This document shows positions 9,284 through 23,361 of a stretch of DNA of 64,000 bases, one piece after another. The notes under the pieces were generated by a model. It searched no databases, was not told the origin of the DNA, and saw nothing but the letters and a program-made list of their open reading frames with translations. Both the position numbers and the translations under genes were made by a program. The first letter of the stretch is position 1, and the number at the start of each line of letters is the position of its first letter. Origin of the DNA: Dokdonella sp. (lineage in GTDB: Bacteria > Pseudomonadota > Gammaproteobacteria > Xanthomonadales > Rhodanobacteraceae); NCBI RefSeq assembly GCF_019634845.1, contig NZ_JAHCAQ010000014.1, positions 1 through 64,000 on the forward strand, given 5' to 3'.

Positions 9284-11017
9284 ATGTCACAGCAACCACT
9301 GACCGATATCACCTTCGAGAGTTTCAATCTGCACCCCGACCTGCTGTCGGGTCTGCATGCCGCCGGATTCACGCGCTGCACGCCGATCCAGGCGTTGACC
9401 CTGCCGGTCGCGCTGGCCGGGCGCGATGTCGCCGGACAGGCACAGACCGGTACCGGCAAGACCGGCGCCTTCCTGGTCGCCGTGCTCGATCGCCTGCTCA
9501 AGCGGCCGGCGCGCAACGACCGCAAGCTGACCGACCCGCGCGCGCTCGTGATCGCGCCGACCCGCGAGCTGGCGATCCAGATCGACAAGGATTTCCACAA
9601 CATCGGCCGCGACACCGGCCTGCGCTCGGCCCTCATCTACGGCGGCGTCGACTACGACAAGCAGCGCGAGGCGCTCAAGGCCGGCTGCGATCTCATCATC
9701 GCCACGCCCGGACGCCTGATCGACTACCTCAAGCAGCACGTGTTCTCGTTCAATGGCATCGAGGCCGTCGTGCTCGATGAAGCCGATCGCATGTTCGACC
9801 TGGGCTTCATCAAGGACATCCGCTTCCTGTTCCGGCGCATGCCGCCGCGCGAGGAGCGCCAGAGCATGCTGTTCTCGGCCACGCTGTCGCATCGCGTGCT
9901 CGAGCTTGCCTACGACCACATGAACGAGCCCGACAAGCTCACGGTCGAGGCCGACCAGATCACGGCCGACCGGGTGCGCCAGCTGGTGTATTTCCCGGCC
10001 CGCGAGGAAAAGCTGCCGCTGCTCATCAACCTGCTGTCGCGGCTCGACACCCACCGCAGCATCGTGTTCGTCAACACCAAGGTCGCGGCCGAGAAGGTCA
10101 CGCGCGCGCTGGAACGGCAGGGCTTCGGCGTGGCCACGCTGTCGGGCGACGTGCCGCAGGCCAAGCGCGAACGCTTGCTGGCCAAGTTCAAGCGCGGCGA
10201 GATCGAAATCCTCGTCGCCACCGACGTGGCCGCGCGCGGCCTGCACATCCCCGATGTCAGCCACGTGTTCAACTACGACCTGCCGCAGGACGCCGAAGAC
10301 TACGTGCACCGCATCGGGCGCACCGCGCGGCTGGGCGCCGAGGGCGACGCGATCAGCTTCGCCTGCGACCTGTACGCCGTGTCGCTGCCCGACATCGAGG
10401 CTTACATCGAGCAGAAGGTGCCGACGGCGGCGATCACGCCCGACCTGCTGCAGGCGCCGCCGCCGCGCGAGCGCAAGCCGATGCCCAAGGCCGATGCCGA
10501 CGCCGAGGCCGAGGCGGCCGACGATGCGCGCAATACCGCCGGCCCGCCCAAGGCTGCCGCGGCTGCGCCGCGCTCGCGGCGTGCTCACGACGGGCCGCGC
10601 CCGTCCCGTGGCGCACGGACCGCGGGCGAAAGTCGCGGCCCACGCCGCGCCCACGACGCGCAAGGCGCGGCGGCTCGCGATGACAGCGGCACGCCAACCG
10701 TCGCTGCGGCCGCCGCGGCGCCCGCTGGCGCCGCCGCTGCGGTGCTGGCCGATGGCGAGGCTCCACGCAAGCGTCGCCGCCGCGGCGGTCGCGGCCGCAA
10801 CAAGCAGCGCAATGGCGAAACGGCGCCGACGACGGCCGCTGCCAACGGCAATGGCCAGGGGCGTGACACCCCCTCGCGCGAGGGCGAGGGCCGCAAGCCG
10901 CGCCGCGAGCACGCGCGCACGCAGCCGACCGAGATCGTGCCCCAGCATGTGGCGCCACCGAGCGCCGCCAAGCAGGGCTTCTTCCGCCGCATCGGCCGCT
11001 TCTTCGGGCTGCGCTGA
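9284..11017 (+). CDS. rhlB: DEAD-box RNA helicase RhlB
   Basis: The 577-aa ATP-dependent RNA helicase would act in mRNA decay. Motifs include the Q-motif region (FTRCTPIQ), P-loop AQTGTGKT (53-60), [19 protein letters not shown] (165-168), SAT and the motif VI segment [10 protein letters not shown]. The N-terminal [14 protein letters not shown] matches xanthomonad RhlB. After about residue 390 the protein becomes a long disordered tail rich in Ala, Arg and Gly, ending in [12 protein letters not shown]. Such tails commonly bind RNA or RNase E. The ATG at 9284 is preferred to one nine bases upstream on homology. It diverges from trxA. Confidence 0.95.
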
Positions 11018-11068: not shown

Positions 11069-13546
11069 TCAGGAGTCGGCCAGCGCCTTACGCAGACCCG
11101 CCATGAGCCGGATGTAGGCCTGGCCGCTGGCGCCGGTCGTCGCAAACAGCCGCTCGGCTTCGGCCAGTTCGGCCCGCGCCGCGTCCCGGTCGCCGTGCGC
11201 GAGTTGCACCTGGGCGCGCGCACGGTGCGTACTGGCGAGCAAATTGCGATTGCTGGCGTAGTCGGCGCGCGCGATGTCATGTGCGGCATCCGCCAGGCGG
11301 CCGCCGGCCACTGCGTCACCGCGCAGTGCGTGCAGTTCGGCCAGTGACACCATCACCGTCACCGTCAGCGGACTGCGCGGCCCGGTCTGCGCCAGTGCGA
11401 TGCGCTGCGCTTCCTGCAAAGCTGCCAGGGCCTCGTCGCGTTGCCCCAGCCGCGTCTGCACGACGCCGAGGTTGTTGAGTGCGGCGGCGAGCTTGGGACT
11501 GTCGCCGTACAGCGCACGAGTCGTGGCGACGATGTTTGCATAGTCGGCGGCACAGCTCGCGTGATGGCCAAGCATGACCGCGGCATTGCAGCGACTGTTG
11601 AGCGCGGCCAAGGCGCCGTCCGAGTCGGCGCGCCCCAGCGCCACGAACACCGCATGGCTGTCGGCCGCGCGCGCCTGCGCCTCCTCGTATTGCCCATCCT
11701 GCAACAACGCGATCGCCAGTGCGTTGAGCAGGTTGCCCGATTCGAAATCGGGCCGCGCCAGCAAGCGGGCGCGCTCGGCGACTGCGTCACGCAGGGTCGC
11801 AATGGCCTGGTCGGCGCGGCCCTCGGCGCGCTCGATCTTGGCCTGGGTCGATGCGCTTTCATTGCGCAGCAGGGCGACATCGCCGGGGCGGTCGCGCCAC
11901 CAGTCCTGCGCCTGTTGGAGCAGCTCGCGCGCGCGCGTCGCGTGGCCACGGCTGATCTCGATCTGGGCGAGGTTGTAGCGCGCGTTGGCCAGCACCTCAG
12001 GGTTGTCCTCGATGCCGGGCCATTGCAGCAGCTGCTCGAGCAGGGCGCCGGCGCCATCGAGGTCGGCCACCTGCAGGAACAGATCGCTCAGCATGAGCGC
12101 AGCGCTTTGTCCCGTCCGTGGCTGGTCGCGGAACTCATCGTGCAGGCGCCGCGCACCGCTGCGGAACACCTCGCGCACGTCGATGTGACTGCTGTCCTGC
12201 TGCGTGCCCGCAGTGCCGAGCATGAGCATCAGGTAGTCGCGGACGGCATCGGCGCGCCGCGCCGCCGCCAGCGCATCGTTGCGCTGGATGCGCGCCTCGC
12301 GCATCTGCCAGACCGTGGTGGTCAGGCCAATCGCGGCCACCGTCAGTGCGAGCGCGCCCAGCGCCACCACGAGCCGATGGCGGCCGATGAACTTGCGCAG
12401 GCGGTAGCCAACGCCGTTGCCCGAAACATGCACCGGCTCGCCGGTCAGCCAGCGACCGAGATCGGCGGCGAAGGCTTCGACCGAGGTGTAGCGGCGCGCG
12501 GGCTCCTTCGCCAACGCCTTGTCGAGGATGCGCGAAAGATCGCCGCGCACGGTCGAGCGGAAGGCGGCGATGCTGCTGCGACGCGCGGCGAGCCGGGTGC
12601 CGGCGTCGGGTCGACCGGCCTCGCTGCGCGCGATGGCCTGGGTTGGCGCGTCGGGCAGCGTTTCGAGCACCGTGCGCTGGGCCGCAACGAGATCGCCGCG
12701 ATCGACCACGTACGGCAGTGCGCCGGTAACCAGTTCGTAGAGGATCACGCCCAGTGAATAGACGTCGGTGCCGGCGCCGGCGGTCTCGCCGAGGAACTGC
12801 TCGGGCGCGGCGTATTCGGGGGTCAGCGCGTGACCGACACCGAGCGTGGCCAGCGTCGCCGGTGCGTCGTCGCCGCCGTCGAGCAGGCGCGCAATGCCGA
12901 AGTCGAGCAGGCGCACCGTGCCGTCGCCGCCGACCAGCACGTTGGCAGGCTTGAGGTCGCGGTGCACGACCAGCTGCGCATGGGCGTACTGCACCGTGGC
13001 GCAGACATCGAGGAACAGACGCACGCGATCGCGGACCGACAGGCGCTGCGCGTCGCACCAGCGCGTGATCGTGTCGCCCTCGACGTATTCCAGCGCAAAC
13101 CACGGCCGCCCGTCCGCGGCGACCCCGCCGTCGATGAAGCGGGCGAGATTGGGGTGATTCAGCCGCGCCAGGATGCGCCGCTCGCGCAGGAAGCGCGCCT
13201 GCACGTCATCGAAATCGAAGCCGCGGCGGATGAGCTTGAGCGCGACTTGTTGCGCGAAGTCGGCGCCCTCGCGCACGCCCCGGTAGACCACGCCCATGCC
13301 GCCTTTGCCGATGCGTTCGACGATGCGGAACGGGCCGAGGCGTTCACCGAGCAACGGGTCGACGGTCGCCGGCGTCGCCGACGCCACCTCGTGCCCGAGG
13401 TCGATCTGCCGCAACAACTCGGCCACCCGCTCCGCGAGTGGCGCGTCGCCACCGCAGTGCTGCCGCAGCCACCCCCCTCGCTGTGCGGGATTCACGTCGA
13501 GCGCGTCACGCGCGAGGGTGAGGGCAAGGCGTTCGCGTGGGTCCAT
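11069..13546 (-). CDS. membrane Ser/Thr protein kinase with C-terminal TPR region (paralogue 1)
   Basis: The product is about 825 aa. A short N-terminal module (RDALDVNPAQRGGWLRQHCGGD) precedes a Hanks-type kinase domain with GKGGMG (about 80-86), the VALK lysine, HRDLKPAN, DFG and APE. A single membrane helix follows at about residue 395 (VVALGALALTVAAIGL), then a periplasmic region of helical TPR-like repeats. The kinase is therefore cytosolic and the sensor-like part outside. The ATG at 13546 is preferred to one six bases upstream because GAGG sits six bases before it. The gene starts 30 bp after a sigma-factor gene and is probably cotranscribed with it. Confidence 0.93.
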   Translation of the reverse strand: MDPRERLALTLARDALDVNPAQRGGWLRQHCGGDAPLAERVAELLRQIDLGHEVASATPATVDPLLGERLGPFRIVERIGKGGMGVVYRGVREGADFAQQVALKLIRRGFDFDDVQARFLRERRILARLNHPNLARFIDGGVAADGRPWFALEYVEGDTITRWCDAQRLSVRDRVRLFLDVCATVQYAHAQLVVHRDLKPANVLVGGDGTVRLLDFGIARLLDGGDDAPATLATLGVGHALTPEYAAPEQFLGETAGAGTDVYSLGVILYELVTGALPYVVDRGDLVAAQRTVLETLPDAPTQAIARSEAGRPDAGTRLAARRSSIAAFRSTVRGDLSRILDKALAKEPARRYTSVEAFAADLGRWLTGEPVHVSGNGVGYRLRKFIGRHRLVVALGALALTVAAIGLTTTVWQMREARIQRNDALAAARRADAVRDYLMLMLGTAGTQQDSSHIDVREVFRSGARRLHDEFRDQPRTGQSAALMLSDLFLQVADLDGAGALLEQLLQWPGIEDNPEVLANARYNLAQIEISRGHATRARELLQQAQDWWRDRPGDVALLRNESASTQAKIERAEGRADQAIATLRDAVAERARLLARPDFESGNLLNALAIALLQDGQYEEAQARAADSHAVFVALGRADSDGALAALNSRCNAAVMLGHHASCAADYANIVATTRALYGDSPKLAAALNNLGVVQTRLGQRDEALAALQEAQRIALAQTGPRSPLTVTVMVSLAELHALRGDAVAGGRLADAAHDIARADYASNRNLLASTHRARAQVQLAHGDRDAARAELAEAERLFATTGASGQAYIRLMAGLRKALADS

Positions 13547-13576
13547 CGTCATCCTCGCGATTGCTCGACGGCCGCG

Positions 13577-14152
13577 TCAGGCGCGGCCGGTCATGTGCTG
13601 GCGCAACCAGGTGTGCGCGGTGAGCCAGTCGCGCTGCGCGGTGCGCTCGCTGGTGCCGAGCGCGGTGGCGATCTGGGCGAATTCGAGGCCGACGAAATAA
13701 CGCAGCTGCACGACCTGTGCCATGCGCTCGTGCGCTTCGTGCAGGTCGTTGAGGGCCTGATCGAGCACGATGAGATCGGTGCCGTCGGGGATCGGCAGGT
13801 CGAGCGCGTCGGCAAAATCGTCGCGGTGCCATTGCCCGCCGCGCTTGTCGGCCGTGGCGGCGCGAGCGCGGCTAACGAGGATCTGGCGCATCATGCGCGC
13901 CGCGGTGTTGAGCAGGTGCCCGGCGTTTTCGAATGCGGCCGGTTCGCGGCCGAGCAGGCGCAGCAGCACTTCGTGCACGAGCGCGGTGGTCTGCAGCGTC
14001 GCGTGGCCGGGCGTGATGTCGAGCACGCGGCTCGCGATGCGGCGCAGGTCGGCGTAGACCAGCGGCAGCAGGCGCTCCAAGGCGGCCGCGTCGCCGGCAT
14101 GCCAGCGACGCAGCAGATCGTCGATTTGGGCGTTGCCCGCAGTCTCCCCCAT
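13577..14152 (-). CDS. ECF-like RNA polymerase sigma factor (kinase-associated type)
   Basis: The 191-aa product has a sigma-2 region (LLPLVYADLRRIASRVL ... VHEVLLRLLG) and a sigma-4 helix-turn-helix (LEFAQIATALGTSERTAQRDW). It resembles the TIGR02999-type ECF family seen with Ser/Thr kinases. Where ordinary ECF factors have an acidic DAED-like motif, this protein has LQTTALVHE, with Thr55 and Thr56. The gene is directly upstream of a Ser/Thr kinase gene and no anti-sigma gene is nearby. The ATG at 14152 is chosen because the paralogue near 21241 begins the same way. No clear Shine-Dalgarno sequence precedes it. Confidence 0.88.
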   Translation of the reverse strand: MGETAGNAQIDDLLRRWHAGDAAALERLLPLVYADLRRIASRVLDITPGHATLQTTALVHEVLLRLLGREPAAFENAGHLLNTAARMMRQILVSRARAATADKRGGQWHRDDFADALDLPIPDGTDLIVLDQALNDLHEAHERMAQVVQLRYFVGLEFAQIATALGTSERTAQRDWLTAHTWLRQHMTGRA

Positions 14153-14159
14153 GAGCGGA

Positions 14160-14167
14160 AAGGTAAC
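14160..14167 (-). promoter_or_regulatory. GTTACCTT octamer upstream of sigma gene 1
   Basis: On the minus strand GTTACCTT lies eight bases before the proposed ATG of the first sigma factor. The identical octamer occurs at nearly the same distance before the second sigma factor (21248-21255), and the following bases are also similar. It occupies the ribosome-binding position but does not resemble a Shine-Dalgarno sequence. It may be a promoter element, a regulatory site or a duplication relic. Confidence 0.35.
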
Positions 14168-14255
14168 CGCTCGATCCATGACAGGCAATGCCGCGCCGTG
14201 CGCGGCGGGGACGCCAACCGCCGGCGCCACTGCGTGCCGGCGGGTGCCCGGCACC

Positions 14256-14636
14256 TCAGTCGGACCCGTTGCGGAAGATCGGGTCCGACAGCATGCGCCG
14301 GCAGGCGAGCGTGAAGCTGCCCTGTGCGTTCACGCTGCAGCCACGCACCCGCAGCGTGCGCGTGGCGGTGGCGGCGCTGGTGAAGTCCAGCCGCGATGCC
14401 CGCCCGCAGTCGTCGTTGCTGGCGACACCGACCACTTCGAGCACCCTGTCGACGTTCGCCGTGCCGCCATCCGCAGCACGCAGTGACAGCTCGCAGGCGT
14501 CGCCGGCCACGACTGGCAGGCTGAACTCCCAAGTGCCGCTGGGACCGAGGCAACCGGTGCTCCACGTCTGCCGGTTCGTCGTCGGGGTCAGCGCCACCAC
14601 GTCGTTGCGGATCGTGACGGTGCGCGTGGGGGCGAA
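14256..14636 (-). pseudogene. 5'-truncated secreted-protein gene ending in an IFRNGSD motif
   Basis: The frame is open from the edge of an IS30 remnant (about 14636) to the stop at 14256. It encodes about 126 residues starting EFAPTRTVTIRNDVVALTPT and ending SDPIFRNGSD. A GTG at 14600 would give 114 aa, but there is no signal peptide. The sequence, with several Cys residues and beta-rich segments (WEFSLPVVAGDACELSL), looks like the C-terminal part of a larger exported protein. The C-terminal motif parallels TIFKNGFD at the end of the 603-aa secreted protein nearby. I infer that the 5' part was lost through insertion of the IS30-type element. Confidence 0.65.
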
Positions 14637-14790
14637 TTCAACTGCGAAAGGGCAACGCGGTTGAAGGAAGCCTCGAACACGGCCTCAGGCGTTCGATAGC
14701 CTGACCGCTTTCGAGGTCGATTGTTGAGTCGATCTTCGATGCGCTGCAGCTCGCTGCCGTGACCCGCGGAGGTTCGCTTCGCGAAACCGA
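14637..14790 (-). mobile_element. IS30-family transposase remnant (C-terminal end)
   Basis: The minus strand encodes ELQRIEDRLNNRPRKRSGYR followed by TPEAVF and FNRVAL, the characteristic end of IS30-family transposases. The frame then reads through because of an apparent one-base insertion: CTTTCGCAGTTGA would be CTT CGC AGT TGA, a normal end, without the extra T. No N-terminal transposase part or second terminus is recognisable up to 15041. The element is therefore a decayed fragment. Its end abuts the truncated secreted-protein gene. Confidence 0.72.
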
Positions 14791-15041
14791 TCGCCTCACG
14801 GAAAGCGAGCGATTGGCCGCATGAAATAGGCGACAACCCGCTTGACACGCACCGCCACGCGTCGCTTTGGTGTTGTCGGCCGACCATGCGGGCGCGGCGA
14901 CCGATCCGCATGCGGATGCGATGATGCTTGCGGCTGGAAGGTGGCGATGAGGTTGTCTCGCCGCAACGGGACGGAACGGGCCTCGATCCTCATCACGGGT
15001 TTTGCTGCCGCGACCCGGCATGCGGCGGCGCGGCGCGCTCC
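14791..15041. other. gap between IS30 remnant and kinase 2, nothing recognised
   Basis: Short open frames here do not resemble known proteins. The stretch may hold further decayed IS30 sequence (for example LAFREAIGFAKR on the minus strand near 14800), but I cannot support this. No hairpin, repeat or RNA gene was noticed. Confidence 0.4.
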
Positions 15042-17630
15042 TCAATGCCCGGCTTGCGCCATGGCCGCGCGGACGCGCTCCAATGCCGGCTGGTAGAAGT
15101 CGTTGCGGTCTTTTCCCGTCGGCGGCGATTGCGCGAGGTGCTGCGCGAGCGGCGCAATGACGCTTTGCGCATCGGCGCTGCGGCCACGTCGCACGAGGCA
15201 AGTGGCTGCCGCGACGCGCGTGCGCACCGTGCGCGGATTGAGCGCATCCGGCAGTTCGGCGACTTGCGCGAGCAGGTCGGTGGCGGCGCTGGCGTCGCCA
15301 TTGTCGCAGCGCAGTGCCGCTCCGAACACCGCGCGGCGGCGCTCGAAATCGACGCGGTTGGTGCCGTCGGCGTTCGCTGCGGCGATGCGCGCCTCCGCGG
15401 CAGCGCGGGCGAGGTCGCCGGCGTGGAACGCGATGTCGGCCGAATGGCTCAGCGTCAGCGCGACGAACGGGTGCGTCTCGCCGAGCGCGGCCGTCATCGC
15501 CGCGGTCGCCTCATCCTGCCAGCGCCGTGCGTCGGCGAGGTGGTTCCAGCGGTAGTAGAGGAAGGCAAGGTCGGAGAGCTTGAACGAGGTCTCGCGGTTG
15601 TTCGCACCATAGATCTGCCGCATGTGTTCGATGCCTTCGAGCATCATCGGCTCGGCCTGCTCGAACTTGCCGGCGAGCATCAGCGTCTGCGCGAGGTTGC
15701 CGTGGCTGTTCCAATACTCGCCCGATCCGCCCAGGCCGTGCGCGTCGAGGAACGCCAGCGCTTGCCGCAGCAGGCGTTCGGCGCCATCGAAATCGCGCTT
15801 GGGATAGCCACGCGGGATCGAGGCCATGTCGAGCAGGTTCGCATACAGCTCGGGCTTGGCTTCGCGGATCGGTTCGAGCAGCGCGACGGCGCGGTCGATG
15901 AAGCGCTCGCTCTCCTCCCAGCGCGCGAGATGGTTGTTGGCGATGGATTGCGCCGTCAGCAGCATCGCCAGCACGGTCGGGTCGTCGACCTCGTGTGCAT
16001 CGGCGAGCTGCTGCGCGGAATCCAGTTCGACCAGCGCGGGCTCGTATTCGCCCTTGAGCACGAGGATTTCGCCGGCCAGCGCGCCGGCGCGCACGCGTGC
16101 CGTCCAGCCGTGGGCGTCGCTCGCCCGCGAGGTGGCGACTTCGCGCGCGATGGCCAGACCTTCGTCGTAGCGGTCGAGGCTTTTCAGGCTGCCGGCGATC
16201 GTCACGCGCAGGTCGTCGCGTGCGCTGGCATCGAGCGTGGTGTCATCGCGCAGCGTGGCGACCGAGCCGTTGAGGAAATCGCCGAGCTTGAGATCGGCGC
16301 CGGCGCCGAACTGCGGATTCGGGCTGGACAGAAGTTTTTCGAGAAAGCGCAGCGAAGCCTCGGCGCGGTTGCGCTCGGTCGTCGTGCGCGCCAGTCCGTC
16401 GTTCAAGGTTTTGACGTGGTAGACCCCGAACGCACCCAGCGTCGCCAGCACGGCGGCGGCCGCGGCGGCGGTGACGCGATGGCGGCGCAGGAACTTGCCG
16501 AGGCGATAGCCCAGGCCATTACCGGACACGCGCACCGGCGCGCCGGCGAGCCAGCGGCGCAGGTCGTCGGCGAAGGACTGCACGGTGTCGTATCGGCGGC
16601 CCGGCGTGTCGGCGAGCGCCTTGTCGACGATGCGTGCGAGGTCACCGCGCACGTCGCCACGGAACGCACGCAGTGAAGTCGAGCGTGCGGCCAGGCGCTT
16701 GGCGGTCATCGCCGGATCGCGCGCGATCGCCTGCGCGAGCGGCAAGTGCGCGGTGTCCGTGGCGAGGTTGCCGGCGAGGCGATCGATCTCGCGCGGCAAG
16801 GCATCCGCCAACAACTGGTAGAGCGTCACGCCAAGCGCGTAGACGTCGGCGGCGACGCCGGGGCGTTCGCCGGCCAGCACTTCGGGCGCGGCGTATTCCG
16901 GCGTGAGCGCACGGCGACCGGCGATCGTCGTCGCCTCGCGCGGCTCGTCCTCGGCAAGCAAACCGGCGAGGCCGAAGTCGAGCAGGCGCACACGGCCGTC
17001 GCCATCGACGAGGATGTTGGCGGGCTTGAGGTCGCGGTGCACGACGAGCTGGGCATGTGCGTACTGCACGGCCGCGCAGACGTCGAGGAAAAGCGTCACG
17101 CGCGCACGCAGGTCGAGTGCGTGCGCGTCGCACCAGCGCGCGATCGGCTCGCCGCGCACGAACTCAAGCGCGAACCACGGTCGGCCGTCGGGCGCGACGC
17201 CGCCGTCGATGAAGCGTGCGAGATTGGGATGGTCGAGTCGGGCGAGGATGCGACGCTCGCGCAGGAAGCGCGTGCGGATGTCGTCGAAATCGAAGCCGCG
17301 GCGGATCAGCTTGAGCGCCACGTCCTGCGAAAAGTCCGCGCCTTCGCGCGTGCCGCGATAGACCACGCCCATGCCGCCGCGGCCGATGCGTTCGGCGACG
17401 CGGAACGCGCCGAGCGTCGTGCCGGGCAGCGCGTCGATGTCGTCGTCGTCGCGCGCGCTGGAGGCTTCAATCGCGCCGCGCTCGGCGATGCCGCGCAGTA
17501 GCCCGGCGACGCGCTCGCGCAGGGTCGTGTCCGCGCCGCAACGCTGCGAGACGAAATCCTCGCGCTCCTGCGGCGCGGTATCGAGCGCGTCGCGCGCGAT
17601 GCGCAGCGCCTTGAGATCGTGTTCGTTCAT
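15042..17630 (-). CDS. membrane Ser/Thr protein kinase with C-terminal TPR region (paralogue 2)
   Basis: The 862-aa product has the same plan as its two neighbours. A short N-terminal module (RDALDTAPQEREDFVSQRCG) precedes a Hanks kinase domain with GRGGMG (about 83-88), Lys107, His198-Arg199-Asp200, DFG (218-220) and an APE motif. One membrane helix follows (VTAAAAAVLATLGAFGVYHV), then a helical-repeat sensor-like region. The ATG at 17630 is chosen over one 45 bases upstream because it aligns with the N termini of the paralogues. Unlike kinases 1 and 3 it has no sigma gene immediately upstream, so it is an orphan within the cluster. Confidence 0.92.
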   Translation of the reverse strand: MNEHDLKALRIARDALDTAPQEREDFVSQRCGADTTLRERVAGLLRGIAERGAIEASSARDDDDIDALPGTTLGAFRVAERIGRGGMGVVYRGTREGADFSQDVALKLIRRGFDFDDIRTRFLRERRILARLDHPNLARFIDGGVAPDGRPWFALEFVRGEPIARWCDAHALDLRARVTLFLDVCAAVQYAHAQLVVHRDLKPANILVDGDGRVRLLDFGLAGLLAEDEPREATTIAGRRALTPEYAAPEVLAGERPGVAADVYALGVTLYQLLADALPREIDRLAGNLATDTAHLPLAQAIARDPAMTAKRLAARSTSLRAFRGDVRGDLARIVDKALADTPGRRYDTVQSFADDLRRWLAGAPVRVSGNGLGYRLGKFLRRHRVTAAAAAAVLATLGAFGVYHVKTLNDGLARTTTERNRAEASLRFLEKLLSSPNPQFGAGADLKLGDFLNGSVATLRDDTTLDASARDDLRVTIAGSLKSLDRYDEGLAIAREVATSRASDAHGWTARVRAGALAGEILVLKGEYEPALVELDSAQQLADAHEVDDPTVLAMLLTAQSIANNHLARWEESERFIDRAVALLEPIREAKPELYANLLDMASIPRGYPKRDFDGAERLLRQALAFLDAHGLGGSGEYWNSHGNLAQTLMLAGKFEQAEPMMLEGIEHMRQIYGANNRETSFKLSDLAFLYYRWNHLADARRWQDEATAAMTAALGETHPFVALTLSHSADIAFHAGDLARAAAEARIAAANADGTNRVDFERRRAVFGAALRCDNGDASAATDLLAQVAELPDALNPRTVRTRVAAATCLVRRGRSADAQSVIAPLAQHLAQSPPTGKDRNDFYQPALERVRAAMAQAGH

Positions 17631-17904
17631 CGACTTCCCCGGTGGCGGCGCTTCGGGCGCGCTGGGCGCCACCACGCTGCGACGGTTGTGCGGATGCGGC
17701 TCCGCTTGTCCGACGTTACGTGAAATCCGTCGGCCAGCGGACAGGGCCGCGCGAGGCGCCCGGCGCGGTCTTCCGGCACTCCCGCAAAGCCCGTTTCCCG
17801 CAGGGCTGCCGGGGGGGCGCGACCGGATCGGCCGGAAAATTCATGCGCATGGCACGCAGGCCGGTCGCGCTGCGCGCGCCCGGCCTGCGGCAGCCGAACG
17901 TCGG
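17631..17904. other. intergenic stretch between kinases 2 and 3
   Basis: This 274-bp gap holds no recognisable gene and no sigma-factor relic that I can see. It presumably carries the promoter of kinase 2. No confident -35/-10 pair or strong hairpin was found. Confidence 0.5.
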
Positions 17905-20637
17905 CTATCGCTCCCCTTGCAGCGGCTGCGCGGAGTCCAGTTGCGGCTCCTCGGCAATGCCCTGCAGCGCGACCACGAAGAAGTGCCGCTCGCCAAGCCT
18001 CGCGCGGGCGCCCGGCAGCGCCTTGAGGGCGCAATCGCGGGCTTGGTCGGTACGCCCGGCGGCGAGCAGGGCCTGGGCGTGCCACAGCTTGAGGCGCGCC
18101 TCGTCGCGGTTTTCGCGCAGTTGCCAGTGCACCGAGATCGGTCGGGAGCGGGCTTGCGCGAGTTGCGCGTCGGCCTGCGCGAAGGCGGCGTCGAGCGCGT
18201 CTGCGTCGGCGGACAGCATGGCCTGCGCGCCGGTGAGCATGGCCGGCGCATGGCCCATGGGCTCGCTTGCGCCCGACAGCCAGGCATTGGCCTGCTGCCA
18301 GTCGTCGCGGGCCGCCTGCGCATCCCCGGCGCAGTGCAGTGCCACGCCGCGCAGGATCTGCGCATAGACCGCATCGATGCCGGGGGCCGCGCCGCCCTCG
18401 GTGTTTGCCTGCACCGCTCGCGCATAATCCCCGGCCGCGGCGGCACAGTGGCCTTCGACCATCGCCAGTTCGCCGCGCAGCAGATATAGGGTATCGCTGA
18501 TGTTTTGCGGATCCAGCGCCGCCGCGCGGTCGAAACCGCGTTCGATCATGGCGTGCGCATGGGCCAGGTCGCCGAGGTCGAACGCATTGGATGCGTGGGT
18601 GGCGGCGTAATAGCCGAGCAGGCGGCGATCCGGGTAACGGTCGAGCAGGTCGCGCGTGCTGGCGAACAGGGTTTCGGCGGATTCGAATTCGCCGAACAGC
18701 GCGCGCCGCAGCGCCGCCATGTTCTGCACGTAGGCGCGTTCGCGCGGGAAGGCGTCATCGCCCGCCGCCAGTGTGGCCTCGGTCAGTTCCCGCGCCCGTT
18801 CGCCCTGACGGACCGAGGTCAGCGCGCCGGCCAGCAGCACCTGGCTGTTCTGACGCCGCGGATCGTTCGCCGGCAGCAGCTTGCGCATCGCCGCCACGGC
18901 CTGTTCGAGCAGGGGTAGGCCCGTCGCCAGATTGCCCGCATCGTCGCTCATCACGCCCAGGTACGTGGCTGAATCGGCCCAGGCCAGGCTGTCCTTGTCG
19001 GTCGACGCATTCGCCGCCGGCACCAGATGGGCCAGAAAGCGGTCGCGTTCAGCCGAGCGCCCCAGACCGTCGAGCAGGTGGGCGTAGGTGGTCAGCACGT
19101 CCAGTCCGTTGGCCGTGCGCGCCAGATCCCAGTTCGGCTCGCTGCCCAGTTCCGCCTGCGCCAGCGCGATGCCATCCTCCTGCGCGTTGAGGTCCAGGTG
19201 CAGGTGCAGCAGGACACGGAGCATTTCCAGGCGCAAGGGGCTGCCCGGCGGCAACACGCGCAGGCGCGCACCACCGCTGTGCAGCAGCTCGCCGACCGAA
19301 ATGCGATCCTCCTCGTCGCGCATGTCGGATTGGCGCAGCAGTTCGACCACGAAGTCCTTCATCACGATCGCCGATTGCGCCTCCTGTTGCGCGATGCGGG
19401 CCTGCCACAGCACCGCGGCAATGCCGGTCACGAGACTGGCCAGCGCCAGTACCGCCAGCGTCGTGCTGAGGCGGTGCCGGCGCACGAACTTGCCGAGGCG
19501 GTAGCCCATCGAGGTGCCGGTCGCCCGCACCGGCGCGCCGGCCAACCAGCGCGAAAGGTCGTCGGCGAAGGCCTGCACGCTGGCGTAGCGGCGCTCGGGT
19601 TCCTTGGCCAGCGCCTTGTCGAGGATGCGCGCGAGATCGCCGCGCACGGTCGAGCGGTAAGCGGCGGCGCTGCTGCGGCGTGCGGCGAGCCGCGTGGCGG
19701 TGTCGGGTCGGCCGTCCTCGCTGCGCGCGATCGCCTGTGTTGGCGATTCGGCTGGGGTTTGGCATACCGTGCGCTGGGCGGCGGCGAGGTCGTGGCTATC
19801 GAGCGCGTAGGGCAGCGTGCCGGTGATGAGCTCGTAGAGGATCACGGCGAGCGAATAGACGTCCGCCGCCACGCCCGTCGCCGCCTGCGTGAACTGCTCG
19901 GGCGCGGCGTATTCGGGCGTGAGCGCATAGACGGAGCCGGCCACGGTCAGCGGCGCGGCCGCGTCGTCGCCGCTGCCTTCGAGCAGACGCGCAATGCCGA
20001 AATCGAGCAGGCGCACGACACCGTCGCCGCCGACCAGCACATTGCCGGGTTTCAGGTCGCGGTGGACGACGAGCTGGCCGTGCGCATACTGCACCGCCGC
20101 GCAGACATCGAGGAACAGGCGCACGCGCTGGCGCACATCGAGCCGCTGCGCGTCGCACCAGCGCGTGATCGCGTCGCCGTCGACGAACTCGAGCGCAAAC
20201 CACGGCCGCCCGTCCGGCGCGACGCCGCCATCGATCAAGCGCGCGAGGTTGGGGTGGTTGAGCCGTGCGAGGATGCGCCGCTCGCGCAGAAAGCGCGCCT
20301 GCACGTCGTCGAAGTCGAAGCCGCGGCGGATCAGCTTGATGGCGACGGTCTGCGCGAAGTCGGCGCCTTCGCGCACGCCGCGATAGACCACGCCGGTGCC
20401 GCCCTTGCCGATGCGTTCGGCGACGCGGAACGGCCCGAGTCGCCCGCCGATGAGGGTATCGACGGCGCCGGGTTGCGCATCGTCTGCGTCGGCGAGGTTG
20501 CGCAGCATCGCTTCGACCCGCGCCTGCAGCGCGGCGTCGCCGCCGCAGCGCGCGGTGATGAATTGCGCGCGCTCGTGCGGCTCGACGTCGAGCGCGTCGC
20601 GAACGACGCGCAGAACCGTGAGGCTGTACTCGCTCAT
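17905..20637 (-). CDS. membrane Ser/Thr protein kinase with C-terminal TPR region (paralogue 3)
   Basis: The 910-aa product has the N-terminal module (RDALDVEPHERAQFITARCG) and a kinase domain with GKGGTG (about 78-83), Lys101, His192-Arg193-Asp194 and DFG (212-214). A single membrane helix follows (TLAVLALASLVTGIAAVL), then a long helical extracytoplasmic region. The kinase domain is nearly identical over long stretches to paralogue 1, while the C-terminal sensor parts differ, as expected for recent duplication followed by sensor divergence. It starts 34 bp after the second sigma-factor gene, giving the same sigma-kinase pair as at 11069-14152. Confidence 0.93.
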   Translation of the reverse strand: MSEYSLTVLRVVRDALDVEPHERAQFITARCGGDAALQARVEAMLRNLADADDAQPGAVDTLIGGRLGPFRVAERIGKGGTGVVYRGVREGADFAQTVAIKLIRRGFDFDDVQARFLRERRILARLNHPNLARLIDGGVAPDGRPWFALEFVDGDAITRWCDAQRLDVRQRVRLFLDVCAAVQYAHGQLVVHRDLKPGNVLVGGDGVVRLLDFGIARLLEGSGDDAAAPLTVAGSVYALTPEYAAPEQFTQAATGVAADVYSLAVILYELITGTLPYALDSHDLAAAQRTVCQTPAESPTQAIARSEDGRPDTATRLAARRSSAAAYRSTVRGDLARILDKALAKEPERRYASVQAFADDLSRWLAGAPVRATGTSMGYRLGKFVRRHRLSTTLAVLALASLVTGIAAVLWQARIAQQEAQSAIVMKDFVVELLRQSDMRDEEDRISVGELLHSGGARLRVLPPGSPLRLEMLRVLLHLHLDLNAQEDGIALAQAELGSEPNWDLARTANGLDVLTTYAHLLDGLGRSAERDRFLAHLVPAANASTDKDSLAWADSATYLGVMSDDAGNLATGLPLLEQAVAAMRKLLPANDPRRQNSQVLLAGALTSVRQGERARELTEATLAAGDDAFPRERAYVQNMAALRRALFGEFESAETLFASTRDLLDRYPDRRLLGYYAATHASNAFDLGDLAHAHAMIERGFDRAAALDPQNISDTLYLLRGELAMVEGHCAAAAGDYARAVQANTEGGAAPGIDAVYAQILRGVALHCAGDAQAARDDWQQANAWLSGASEPMGHAPAMLTGAQAMLSADADALDAAFAQADAQLAQARSRPISVHWQLRENRDEARLKLWHAQALLAAGRTDQARDCALKALPGARARLGERHFFVVALQGIAEEPQLDSAQPLQGER

Positions 20638-20671
20638 CCGGGCAGCCTGTGTCGCGCGCGCCGCGCGAGGC

Positions 20672-21241
20672 TCACGTGTCGGCGAGCCGCTGGCGCAGCC
20701 ATTCGTGCGCGGCGATCCAGTCGCGCTGCGCGGTTCGTTCGGCCACGTCGAGCATCGTGGCGACTTCCGGCACCTCCAGGCCGATGAAGTAGCGCAGCTC
20801 CACCACTTTCGCCATGCGCGCGTCCATCGCCTCGAGTTCGGTCAGCGCCTGGTCCAGCATGATGAGGTCGGTGCCGTCCGGGATTTGCAGCTCCGCCACC
20901 TCGGCGAAATCCGCGCGCCGCCATTCGCCGCCGCGCTTGGTTCGGCTCGCGTTGCGGGCCCGGTCGACCAGGATCTGCCGCATCATGCGCGCAGAGGCAT
21001 TGAGCAGGTGCGTGGTGCTGGCGTATTCGGCCGGTGCGCGGCCGAGCAGGCGCAGCAGCATTTCGTGGACGAGCGCCGTGGTCTGCAGCGTCGCATGGCC
21101 CGGCGTCGAACGCAGTACGCTGGCGGCGATGCGGCGCAGATCGGCATACACGAGCGGCAACAGGCGATCGAGCGCGGCCGGATCGCCGTCGCGCCAACGC
21201 TCCAGCCACTTGGTGACGCTGCCTTCGGTCGCAGACCCCAT
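20672..21241 (-). CDS. ECF-like RNA polymerase sigma factor (kinase-associated type), second copy
   Basis: The 189-aa paralogue of the sigma factor at 13577-14152 has a sigma-2 region (LLPLVYADLRRIAASVL ... VHEMLLRLLG) and a sigma-4 helix-turn-helix (LEVPEVATMLDVAERTAQRDW). The segment LQTTALVHE, with Thr54 and Thr55, again replaces the acidic DAED-like motif of ordinary ECF factors. It is followed directly by kinase 3. The ATG at 21241 gives an N terminus like that of the first copy. No anti-sigma factor gene is adjacent. Confidence 0.88.
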   Translation of the reverse strand: MGSATEGSVTKWLERWRDGDPAALDRLLPLVYADLRRIAASVLRSTPGHATLQTTALVHEMLLRLLGRAPAEYASTTHLLNASARMMRQILVDRARNASRTKRGGEWRRADFAEVAELQIPDGTDLIMLDQALTELEAMDARMAKVVELRYFIGLEVPEVATMLDVAERTAQRDWIAAHEWLRQRLADT

Positions 21242-21247
21242 GCAGCG

Positions 21248-21255
21248 AAGGTAAC
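21248..21255 (-). promoter_or_regulatory. GTTACCTT octamer upstream of sigma gene 2
   Basis: The same octamer as at 14160-14167 lies six bases before the ATG of the second sigma factor on the minus strand. Its meaning is unknown. The rest of the gap to 21373 shows nothing recognisable. Confidence 0.35.
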
Positions 21256-21373
21256 GTGCCGATGGTGGCGCTGCCAAGCGCTGCGATGGCCGCAGTGGCG
21301 CGCGGTGGGCAGTATCGCTTCGCGGGGCCATTGGCGGATGCGAGCGTGAATCGCGCACGACGCGCACTTGCAG

Positions 21374-21411
21374 CGCCGGGCCACCCTCCGTTGCCGGAGG
21401 GTGGCCCGGCG
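21374..21411 (-). terminator. strong hairpin after the secreted-protein gene
   Basis: A perfect 17-bp stem (21374-21390 with 21395-21411) closes a TTGC loop. It starts 17 bases past the stop of the gene at 21428. Its GC-rich stem makes it very stable, but no T run follows on the minus strand. It probably ends transcription of the secreted-protein gene and separates it from the sigma/kinase pair. Confidence 0.7.
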
Positions 21412-21427
21412 GTTTCCGCTGCGCGGG

Positions 21428-23239
21428 TCAATCGAAGCCGTTCTTGAAAATCGTGTCGATTGGTGGCGCCAGGCCGAGTACGGCAACCTTCTGCTTGCCG
21501 CGCCAGGACGGGAGCAAGGCATCAGATGTGTAGCGGCTGTCGCCGGTCATGACGAACTTGCCGTCGCCGGTGCCGACGACGCCGTACATGCCGCTGTGCT
21601 TGCTGCGCGATGCGCCGATGTCGAAGGCGTACGTTTCGAACGACTTCACGGTGAGGTTGTCCAGGAGGGCGAAGGTGCTGTCGACGGAATCCTCTGGACA
21701 AGTGCCGCCGATCGGGCAAGGCGGGCTCCAGACCCGCATGCCGACGATGGCGAGCTTGCCGGCCTGCATGGTCAGGCCGTTGCCGTAGTCGGTTGAGCCA
21801 AACGAACAAAGTGTCCCGATGGGTGCGCTCGATCCGCCGAACACCGTGCGCGAATAGCTCCCGCCATTGTTGTAGTCGGTGGACACGCGCACCACGCTGA
21901 TGCCGCCCTTGCACTCGCGAGCCGAGTTCGAGGCCACGTACACAGTATGGACGCGCGGGCTGCCGGGAAGTCCGTTATAGGAGTTGACCGCGATGCCGAA
22001 CGGCACGTCGTCCTTGGCGATGCCGCCGGCATCCATCCATCCCGTCTGCCAGCTTGGATCGGCGACGCCGTCCTGGTTGACCCGCAGGACCATGACGTCG
22101 TAGTCGGCTGTCTTCTTTCTCGCCACCGCAATGAAGATCGCGGGATGGATGGAGGCGCCGACCAGCGCTGGCTCGCCGAGCGCGATGCCCTTGGCCTCGC
22201 AGGATTCGCTGGTGTCGTCGCAGTTGCTGCTGTAGTTGAGCACCACGGTGCCGGTCGCTGCGGTCATGAAGCCATTGCTGCTAAGCGTGTAGCGGCGGAA
22301 GATCGGCTTGGGCTTCTGGCTGCCGTCCCGCCAGAACTGGGTTGCGGTCACGACGACGTGTGTGATTTCCGGTGCGAAGCCAGTGTGGTAGACCTCCATG
22401 CCGCCGATCATCTCGTTGTAGTTGCCGCTGTTGAAAACCTCAGCGGTGCTGAGATATTTGCCGGCGGTATTGAACACGTAGACATGGGTGTCGATGTCGG
22501 TGGTGCCGTTGAAGTTCCTGTTGACCGAGACGAGGATGAAGTCGTCGATGACCTTGATGTCCTGGACCCAGCTGATGTAGGCCGTGTCGGATTTGGGGTA
22601 GACGATCCAAGGCGTCGCCGATGAATAGATGCAATCGCCTTGTCCGCCGCCATAAGCGCCGGGTGAGGTCCAGCATTTGCGGCTACCCGCCGCGCTGTAT
22701 TTCGCCAGGCCGAGGTTCCAGAAGCCATTGGTCTGGTTGCCGCCGGGATTCTTGATCATCGCCGCGACCACGATGTCGCCGTTGTCGAGCCGCGCCACCT
22801 TGCGGCCGAGGAAATAGCCTTGCGGGGAGCTGATGCTGCCGCCGAAGTCGTTCTCGATGTACTTGCCGCTGTTGAATGCCGGGTCGGCGACGTAGCTGTT
22901 GGCATCGAACGGCGTGTAGGGGCTGTCCGCCGAGGTTTCCTCACGATAGGCGGCGACGACGAGAGGATCGTCCGGGTTGAAGCCGAGCGCGGCGATTGCG
23001 GCGCGCTCGCGTTCGCTGTCCTCGAATTCCATGTCGGCAAGCATGTTGGCTTGTTCGCCGTGGATGGGTTGGTGCTGGGCCGCCGCGGCCGTTTGGCGGA
23101 AATTCCCGGTATCGGCAAAGGCCGGCACCGCCATCGTGGCGGCCAGCAGCAGCGTGGCCCATCCGCCGAGGCGGATGCGTGTAGTGGAACTGGAATGCGA
23201 CTCGGCGGCGCCGGCCGCAGCGTGGTGCAGCGGATGCAT
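21428..23239 (-). CDS. secreted protein with delta-60-like repeats and C-terminal IFKNGFD motif
   Basis: The 603-aa product has an N-terminal signal sequence after about 25 residues (LGGWATLLLAATMAVPAFA). The body contains repeated beta-strand segments such as GRKVARLDNGDIVVAAMI, MVLRVNQDGVADPSW and GKFVMTGDSRY, suggestive of a beta-propeller-like fold. It ends IDTIFKNGFD, a tail also seen on the truncated gene at 14256. The ATG at 23239 is chosen because GGGAGA lies seven to eight bases upstream. No catalytic motif is visible. It sits just upstream, in transcription order, of the sigma/kinase pair but is separated from it by a hairpin. The function is unknown. Confidence 0.85.
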   Translation of the reverse strand: MHPLHHAAAGAAESHSSSTTRIRLGGWATLLLAATMAVPAFADTGNFRQTAAAAQHQPIHGEQANMLADMEFEDSERERAAIAALGFNPDDPLVVAAYREETSADSPYTPFDANSYVADPAFNSGKYIENDFGGSISSPQGYFLGRKVARLDNGDIVVAAMIKNPGGNQTNGFWNLGLAKYSAAGSRKCWTSPGAYGGGQGDCIYSSATPWIVYPKSDTAYISWVQDIKVIDDFILVSVNRNFNGTTDIDTHVYVFNTAGKYLSTAEVFNSGNYNEMIGGMEVYHTGFAPEITHVVVTATQFWRDGSQKPKPIFRRYTLSSNGFMTAATGTVVLNYSSNCDDTSESCEAKGIALGEPALVGASIHPAIFIAVARKKTADYDVMVLRVNQDGVADPSWQTGWMDAGGIAKDDVPFGIAVNSYNGLPGSPRVHTVYVASNSARECKGGISVVRVSTDYNNGGSYSRTVFGGSSAPIGTLCSFGSTDYGNGLTMQAGKLAIVGMRVWSPPCPIGGTCPEDSVDSTFALLDNLTVKSFETYAFDIGASRSKHSGMYGVVGTGDGKFVMTGDSRYTSDALLPSWRGKQKVAVLGLAPPIDTIFKNGFD

Positions 23240-23361
23240 GGTGGCTGTCTCCCTTGGTGAACGACGGCCAGCGGGCCGCTTCATTGGGGGATACGCAAAA
23301 CCCGCGGGTCATCCGACACGCCCGCCGAAAATTTTTCTGCTGCCCGGCAACCTGCGAATCG

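Follow-up and report, generated by a model that had tools for sequence, protein, structure and literature searches.

Gene cluster and its products

A cluster of five minus-strand genes, in the order sigma2, K2, K3, sigma1 and K1, is found in the genome of Dokdonella sp. (assembly GCF_019634845.1), within a window of 64,000 nucleotides that comprises positions 1 to 64,000 of contig NZ_JAHCAQ010000014.1. The cluster encodes two extracytoplasmic function (ECF) sigma factors and three membrane Ser/Thr kinases, and by the features tested the locus holds further members of ECF43, a group of sigma factors whose mechanism is already known. Novelty may lie in the make-up of the cluster, with its third kinase and its apparent mosaic history, together with the narrowing of the predicted switch to a single residue.

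Sigma1 (13577-14152) and sigma2 (20672-21241), which are 64% identical, are members of TIGR02999 (Sig-70_X6) and show no difference from that family. Their scores of 172.7 and 178.6 bits lie 46-52 bits above the cut-off of 126.15, and both also match PF07638 (141.2 and 162.7 bits; cut-off 21.1). The gene of sigma1 is followed after 24 bp by that of kinase K1 (11069-13552), and sigma2 is followed after 34 bp by K2 (17905-20637). A preliminary description of this DNA had already noticed two ECF sigma genes directly upstream of membrane kinase genes, which these scores and distances bear out, although it counted only two kinases. A third one, K3 (15042-17675, with a likelier start at an ATG at about 17630), is the second kinase gene after sigma2.

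All three kinases show a Pkinase domain (137-144 bits), one transmembrane helix each, predicted to lie within residues 390-421, and TPR matches behind that helix, the one of K2 being weak (E 0.005). In K1 the kinase domain spans residues 76-361 and the helix residues 394-414, all approximately, ahead of a C-terminal TPR sensor. The top PDB match of K2 is 9EED (E 3.8e-39), the structure of PknS from the EcfK/PknS pair (ECF43) of Xanthomonas citri, a kinase described as having an N-terminal extension, a kinase domain, one transmembrane helix and, on the periplasmic side, three TPRs (PMC13147305). The catalytic Lys, Asp, Asn and Asp are kept in K1, K2 and K3 and, altogether, in 85 of the 86 kinase domains read, which were those lying within the fetched DNA among 148 kinase matches. 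Pseudokinases were considered for the 17 domains lacking a strict (H/Y)RDxKxxN motif, and the idea was dropped, since 16 of them have the K, D, N and D residues and it is mostly the R of HRD that is altered.

A threonine site in place of the acidic motif

The segment LQTTALVHE is read in both sigma factors, and the threonine numbers given earlier (T55/T56, T54/T55) hold if the genes start at 14152 and 21241. Its QTTA core, residues 54-57 of sigma1 and 53-56 of sigma2, contains no acidic residue and stands where ordinary ECF sigma factors carry an acidic motif of the DxxD/DAED type in region 2.2. Several alignments agree on this placement. The segment falls on the acidic motif when the proteins are aligned by MAFFT with two ordinary ECFs from the home genome, and again on that of Mycobacterium tuberculosis SigL (6DV9) in a phmmer alignment whose E value of 0.19 is not significant. 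A profile-profile comparison with hhalign (99%), made between 80 family members and 18 ordinary ECFs with no kinase closer than 3 kb, sets Q54-T55-T56-A57 opposite D-A-D-E. Both in the phmmer and in the hhalign alignments it is the second Thr that faces the third position of the motif.

The pairs thus differ in two respects from an ordinary ECF controlled by an anti-sigma factor: their region 2.2 site reads QTTA instead of being acidic, and no anti-sigma family was detected in the seven neighbouring window proteins scanned, a scan limited to those seven that agrees with the absence of an anti-sigma gene noted before. Both features of ECF43 are found instead, namely an adjoining gene for a Hanks-type Ser/Thr kinase and an acidic site replaced with Thr at its third position. 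The consensus published for ECF43 is likewise QTTA (PMC13147305). The EcfP/PknT system of Vibrio parahaemolyticus, which the preliminary description named correctly as a precedent (PMC8999054, PMC8103513, PMC13147305), has an ECF sigma factor that is activated by a neighbouring Ser/Thr kinase, and in EcfP, compared here by its description, STTA replaces DAED and the second Thr is phosphorylated (PMC8999054). The Dokdonella locus differs from EcfP/PknT in that a single cluster combines two sigma genes with three kinase genes.

In the predicted model of sigma1 (mean pLDDT 77.9) the third helix comprises residues 55-68. A Foldseek search with the model gave the expected match to ECF sigma structures, which is weak by E value (best 1.6e-3, probability 1.00) and uninformative on the site.

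Conservation of the site in the family

The site was surveyed in all 80 TIGR02999 members scoring above the cut-off in six genomes from this order: the home genome (G000) supplied 14, and G019, G021, G023, G027 and G029 the other 66. The second position of the Thr pair is T in 75 members (R in two; S, H and P in one each), and the first is T in 39, A in 22, P in 18 and D in one. Among the columns filled in at least 70 of the 80 rows, three have at least 70% Ser/Thr, corresponding to T52, T56 and T171 of sigma1. Because of this conservation, and because its column is one of those three, the second Thr (T56 in sigma1, T55 in sigma2) looks like the candidate switch, and only it does so. The Thr pair had been described as lying on the acidic motif, with an alignment elsewhere named as the observation that would speak against it. 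For the second Thr the placement holds in the survey as in the phmmer and hhalign alignments, whereas the notion of two equivalent threonines does not survive the variability of the first.

The loss of acidic residues accompanies this conservation. No acidic residue occurs in the four-residue site of 50 members, at most one in 79 and at least two in a single one. Of the 18 ordinary ECFs that have no kinase closer than 3 kb, 17 hold at least two. Sigma matches below the family threshold numbered 30 in the six genomes, and in all 23 that were read the fourth site position is D or E, including a near-member at 123.8 bits with the site CTTE. Beyond the order, T56 is nearly invariant in an alignment of 21 proteins, the two from the window and 19 relatives whose record titles assign them to Pseudomonadota, Acidobacteriota, Gemmatimonadota and Balneolota. 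The sole row without Thr belongs to Aquisalinus luteolus (L043, match 10001-10540), whose site YADE is charged without any phosphate. Kinase-like stretches lie within 1 kb of this gene, which possibly represents a kinase-independent form.

Linkage and co-variation with kinases

The arrangement is not peculiar to sigma1 and sigma2 but recurs in the home genome, where a kinase lies within 3 kb of 13 of the 14 family sigma genes. In the other five genomes 63 of 66 lie at most 3 kb from a Pkinase match, 55 of them within 1 kb, which brings the linkage to 76 of 80; among related loci taken from named records, a kinase is found within 2 kb in 21 of 23. The identity matrices of sigma factors and kinase domains are also correlated over the 76 pairs (r 0.43), a value that none of 2000 permutations reached. 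Within single genomes r was 0.42 in G000 (reached in 11 of 2000 permutations), 0.63 in G019 and 0.45 in G027 (0/2000 each). In this six-genome sample, the loss of the acidic contact with RNA polymerase, one particular Thr and the linkage to a kinase therefore go together.

An alternative would be that sigma factor and kinase merely have a common operon, that the kinase acts on another protein, such as an unlinked anti-sigma factor or RNA polymerase itself, and that the sigma factor is governed by its level. It could draw on the four members of 80 that keep the Thr with no kinase within 3 kb and on the five that have a kinase and lack the Thr. The frequency of the linkage and the correlated similarities of both partners argue against it, as do the retention of Thr where acidic residues are lost and the direct phosphorylation described for two published pairs (PMC8999054, PMC13147305), so that we regard this explanation as very improbable.

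Some observations do weigh against a switch at the second Thr exerted by the neighbouring kinase. The five members without that Thr (R, R, S, H, P) all have a kinase within 3 kb, 29 of the 80 members retain one acidic residue in the site, and the four Thr-keeping members without a near kinase may have to rely on a distant one. The linkage is not exclusive to the family either: five of 28 sub-threshold sigma matches in the five genomes likewise lie at most 3 kb from a kinase, four of the five with two or three acidic residues retained. Finally, EcfK of X. citri is reported to be still functional as a T51A mutant, a linker Thr also serving (PMC13147305), and the region 2.2 Thr need therefore not be the sole switch.

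Two related sets of loci were seen on the way. A family sigma gene of the home genome with the site DATA (G000:C14:19335-19814, L019) has no kinase match on its 39-kb contig. A second kind of kinase-linked ECF occurs in G019 and G027 (L094:4001-4480, L096:5001-5501, L095:5001-5486 and L109:5001-5510). The best NCBIfam model of these sigma factors is TIGR02984, below its cut-off; their sites keep acidic residues and contain Thr (DTDD, ETAD), and all four genes lie 236-325 bp from kinases with HGD in place of HRD.

Proposed mechanism

By analogy with the published pairs, sigma1 and sigma2 are very probably switched on when the neighbouring membrane kinase phosphorylates the second Thr of QTTA. 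The sigma factor would probably be made with no need of its own activity, as the sigma70-like promoter candidate described below suggests, and, lacking the acidic patch of region 2.2, it should bind core RNA polymerase poorly. A signal reaching the C-terminal extracytoplasmic sensor of the kinase would then lead the cytoplasmic kinase domain to phosphorylate T56 of sigma1 or T55 of sigma2, and the phosphate, which would sit at the start of the third helix (residues 55-68 in the sigma1 model), could supply the missing charge. In the model put forward for this group, the charge through which the sigma factor docks on the beta' subunit is restored once the region 2.2 Thr is phosphorylated (PMC8999054, PMC8103513, PMC13147305). 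K1 would serve sigma1, and K2, perhaps also K3, would serve sigma2. In this scheme the gene identities, the alignment and conservation of the site, the linkage and co-variation with kinases and the intact kinase active sites are computed results; that the sigma factors are phosphorylated, at which residue, with what consequence and by which of the kinases is inferred from the precedent of the family. A PP2C-type phosphatase may reset the system, and a search of the home genome with PF13672, the sole phosphatase family searched, gave a single PP2C-type gene.

A different possibility is that the Thr of region 2.2 is not the switch, or not the whole of it: the kinase would target linker residues such as T106 of EcfK, and the Thr of QTTA would play a structural role, for instance as a helix cap. 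The X. citri protein is described as phosphorylated at linker sites, either T51 or T106 being sufficient (PMC13147305), and the predicted helix of sigma1 begins at residue 55, where a Thr can cap it. The linker columns may moreover be among those filled in fewer than 70 of the 80 rows, outside the Ser/Thr count. The parsed linkers of sigma1 and sigma2, however, are each acidic at six positions and have only one Thr, close to the end. A phosphate would thus seem less necessary in them, a weak argument, since EcfK was considered by its published description. EcfK, as described, also has the site QATE besides its second phospho-site in the linker, unlike the QTTA of sigma1 and sigma2 with no acidic residue. 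Since their linkers are already acidic, an EcfK-like second switch appears less likely in these two proteins, and the linker explanation as a whole seems improbable to us. Under the favoured phosphorylation of the second QTTA Thr, an experimental test is narrowed to one residue per sigma factor.

History of the cluster

The halves of the three kinases seem to have had different histories. K1, K2 and K3 are 63-72% identical up to the transmembrane helix and 27-28% after it, in agreement with the divergent C-terminal sensors noticed at first. The near-identical outputs ascribed to them are at odds with the sigma factors themselves, which at 64% identity appear to be separate lineages and not twins. 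When the cluster was compared with loci of the same sigma lineage from ten other genomes and Chiayiivirga flava, sigma1 grouped with G002, another species (support 100/99), and a sisterhood of sigma1 and sigma2 was rejected in the approximately unbiased (AU) test (p-AU 0.0023). The sensor tree also places K1 with G002 (100/99) and K3 with G010 (100/100), rejecting K1 with K2 (p-AU 0.0006); the K2 sensor forms a long branch of unsure placement. In the catalytic tree, K1 and K2 are sisters (100/99) and K1 with G002 is rejected (p-AU 0.0013). K1 thus looks like a mosaic, its sensor and sigma1 going by descent with G002 and its catalytic half being common with its neighbour K2.

A K3-type kinase directly follows, in G010, a sigma factor 74% identical to sigma2 and 69% to sigma1, and for this reason sigma2-K3 may be the older pair, with K2 as a later insertion carrying a different sensor. 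Identical DNA tracts between K1 and K2 reach at most 28 bases, so that any exchange events, if real, would be old. This history is a lead and not proof, because the pairs for the AU tests were chosen after the identities had been seen and the inner branches are mostly weak (3/11 starred in the catalytic tree, 3/10 in the sigma tree).

These trees suggest sensor exchange on a conserved sigma-kinase core. A fuller scenario, which we hold only tentatively and consider somewhat less probable than its opposite, is that unrelated extracytoplasmic sensors were swapped by recombination near the transmembrane junction onto a core of sigma factor and catalytic domain, and that gene conversion keeps neighbouring catalytic halves alike. 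In that case K2 and K3 would each feed a signal into sigma2, and both sigma factors might be cross-phosphorylated by K1 and K2. The extracytoplasmic domains of ECF43 kinases are stated to vary (PMC13147305, citing others), and a thin literature search turned up no title dealing with the sensor domains of such kinases or with gene conversion in them. With the same core and different sensors, the three-kinase cluster offers a compact case of how phospho-switched sigma factors may gain inputs. The question is a wide one, since in three of the 41 genomes searched the sigma family has 43 or 44 matches, counting weak ones.

Transcription units and neighbouring features

A very stable hairpin (21360-21430, minus strand; -57.1 kcal/mol, z -6.9, with 0/200 shuffles as stable) lies between the upstream gene and sigma2 and probably separates their transcription units. 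A sigma70-like promoter candidate found by eye (TTGGCA-N18-TACCTT, 21248-21277, minus strand), follows it, the end of its -10 box six bases ahead of the ATG. The hairpin and this candidate suggest that a separate transcription unit starts with sigma2 and perhaps includes K2 and K3. Thirteen sigma genes from this lineage, those of sigma1 and sigma2 included, were inspected by eye: G(C/T)TA(C/T) stands directly ahead of the start codon in all 13, and TTGGCA further upstream in four of the 13. Sigma70-like promoters so near the start codon may give leaderless messages in this lineage. A shared autoregulated ECF promoter was also considered and discarded, as the 6-mers counted ahead of the 80 sigma genes were for the most part -10-like or coding-start words, with no clear family motif.

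Between K3 and sigma1, a minus-strand remnant (14588-14911) resembles the C-terminus of an IS30-type transposase. It gave no Pfam match and one unannotated plasmid place at 65.7% identity, so it stays a resemblance; the remnant may mark how the two sigma-kinase modules joined.

Two minus-strand proteins of the window (21428-23284 and 14256-14600) have a short C-terminal tail of the kind IFKNGFD or IFADGFE. As a marker of a sigma regulon the tail was rejected: weighed against coverage, four of 17 matches in G000 lie within 8 kb of these sigma genes (1.1 expected; p 0.02, weak), and there is no excess in G027 (4/36), G019 (1/7, one of its eight matches being excluded because it ends in TGG, with no stop) or G029 (0/6). 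Tail proteins occur in these four genomes and in neither G021 nor G023. The pattern has 17 exact matches in the home genome, against none for the reversed pattern, and is possibly an undescribed C-terminal signal, of which the open reading frame at 14256-14600 carries the variant IFRNGSD.

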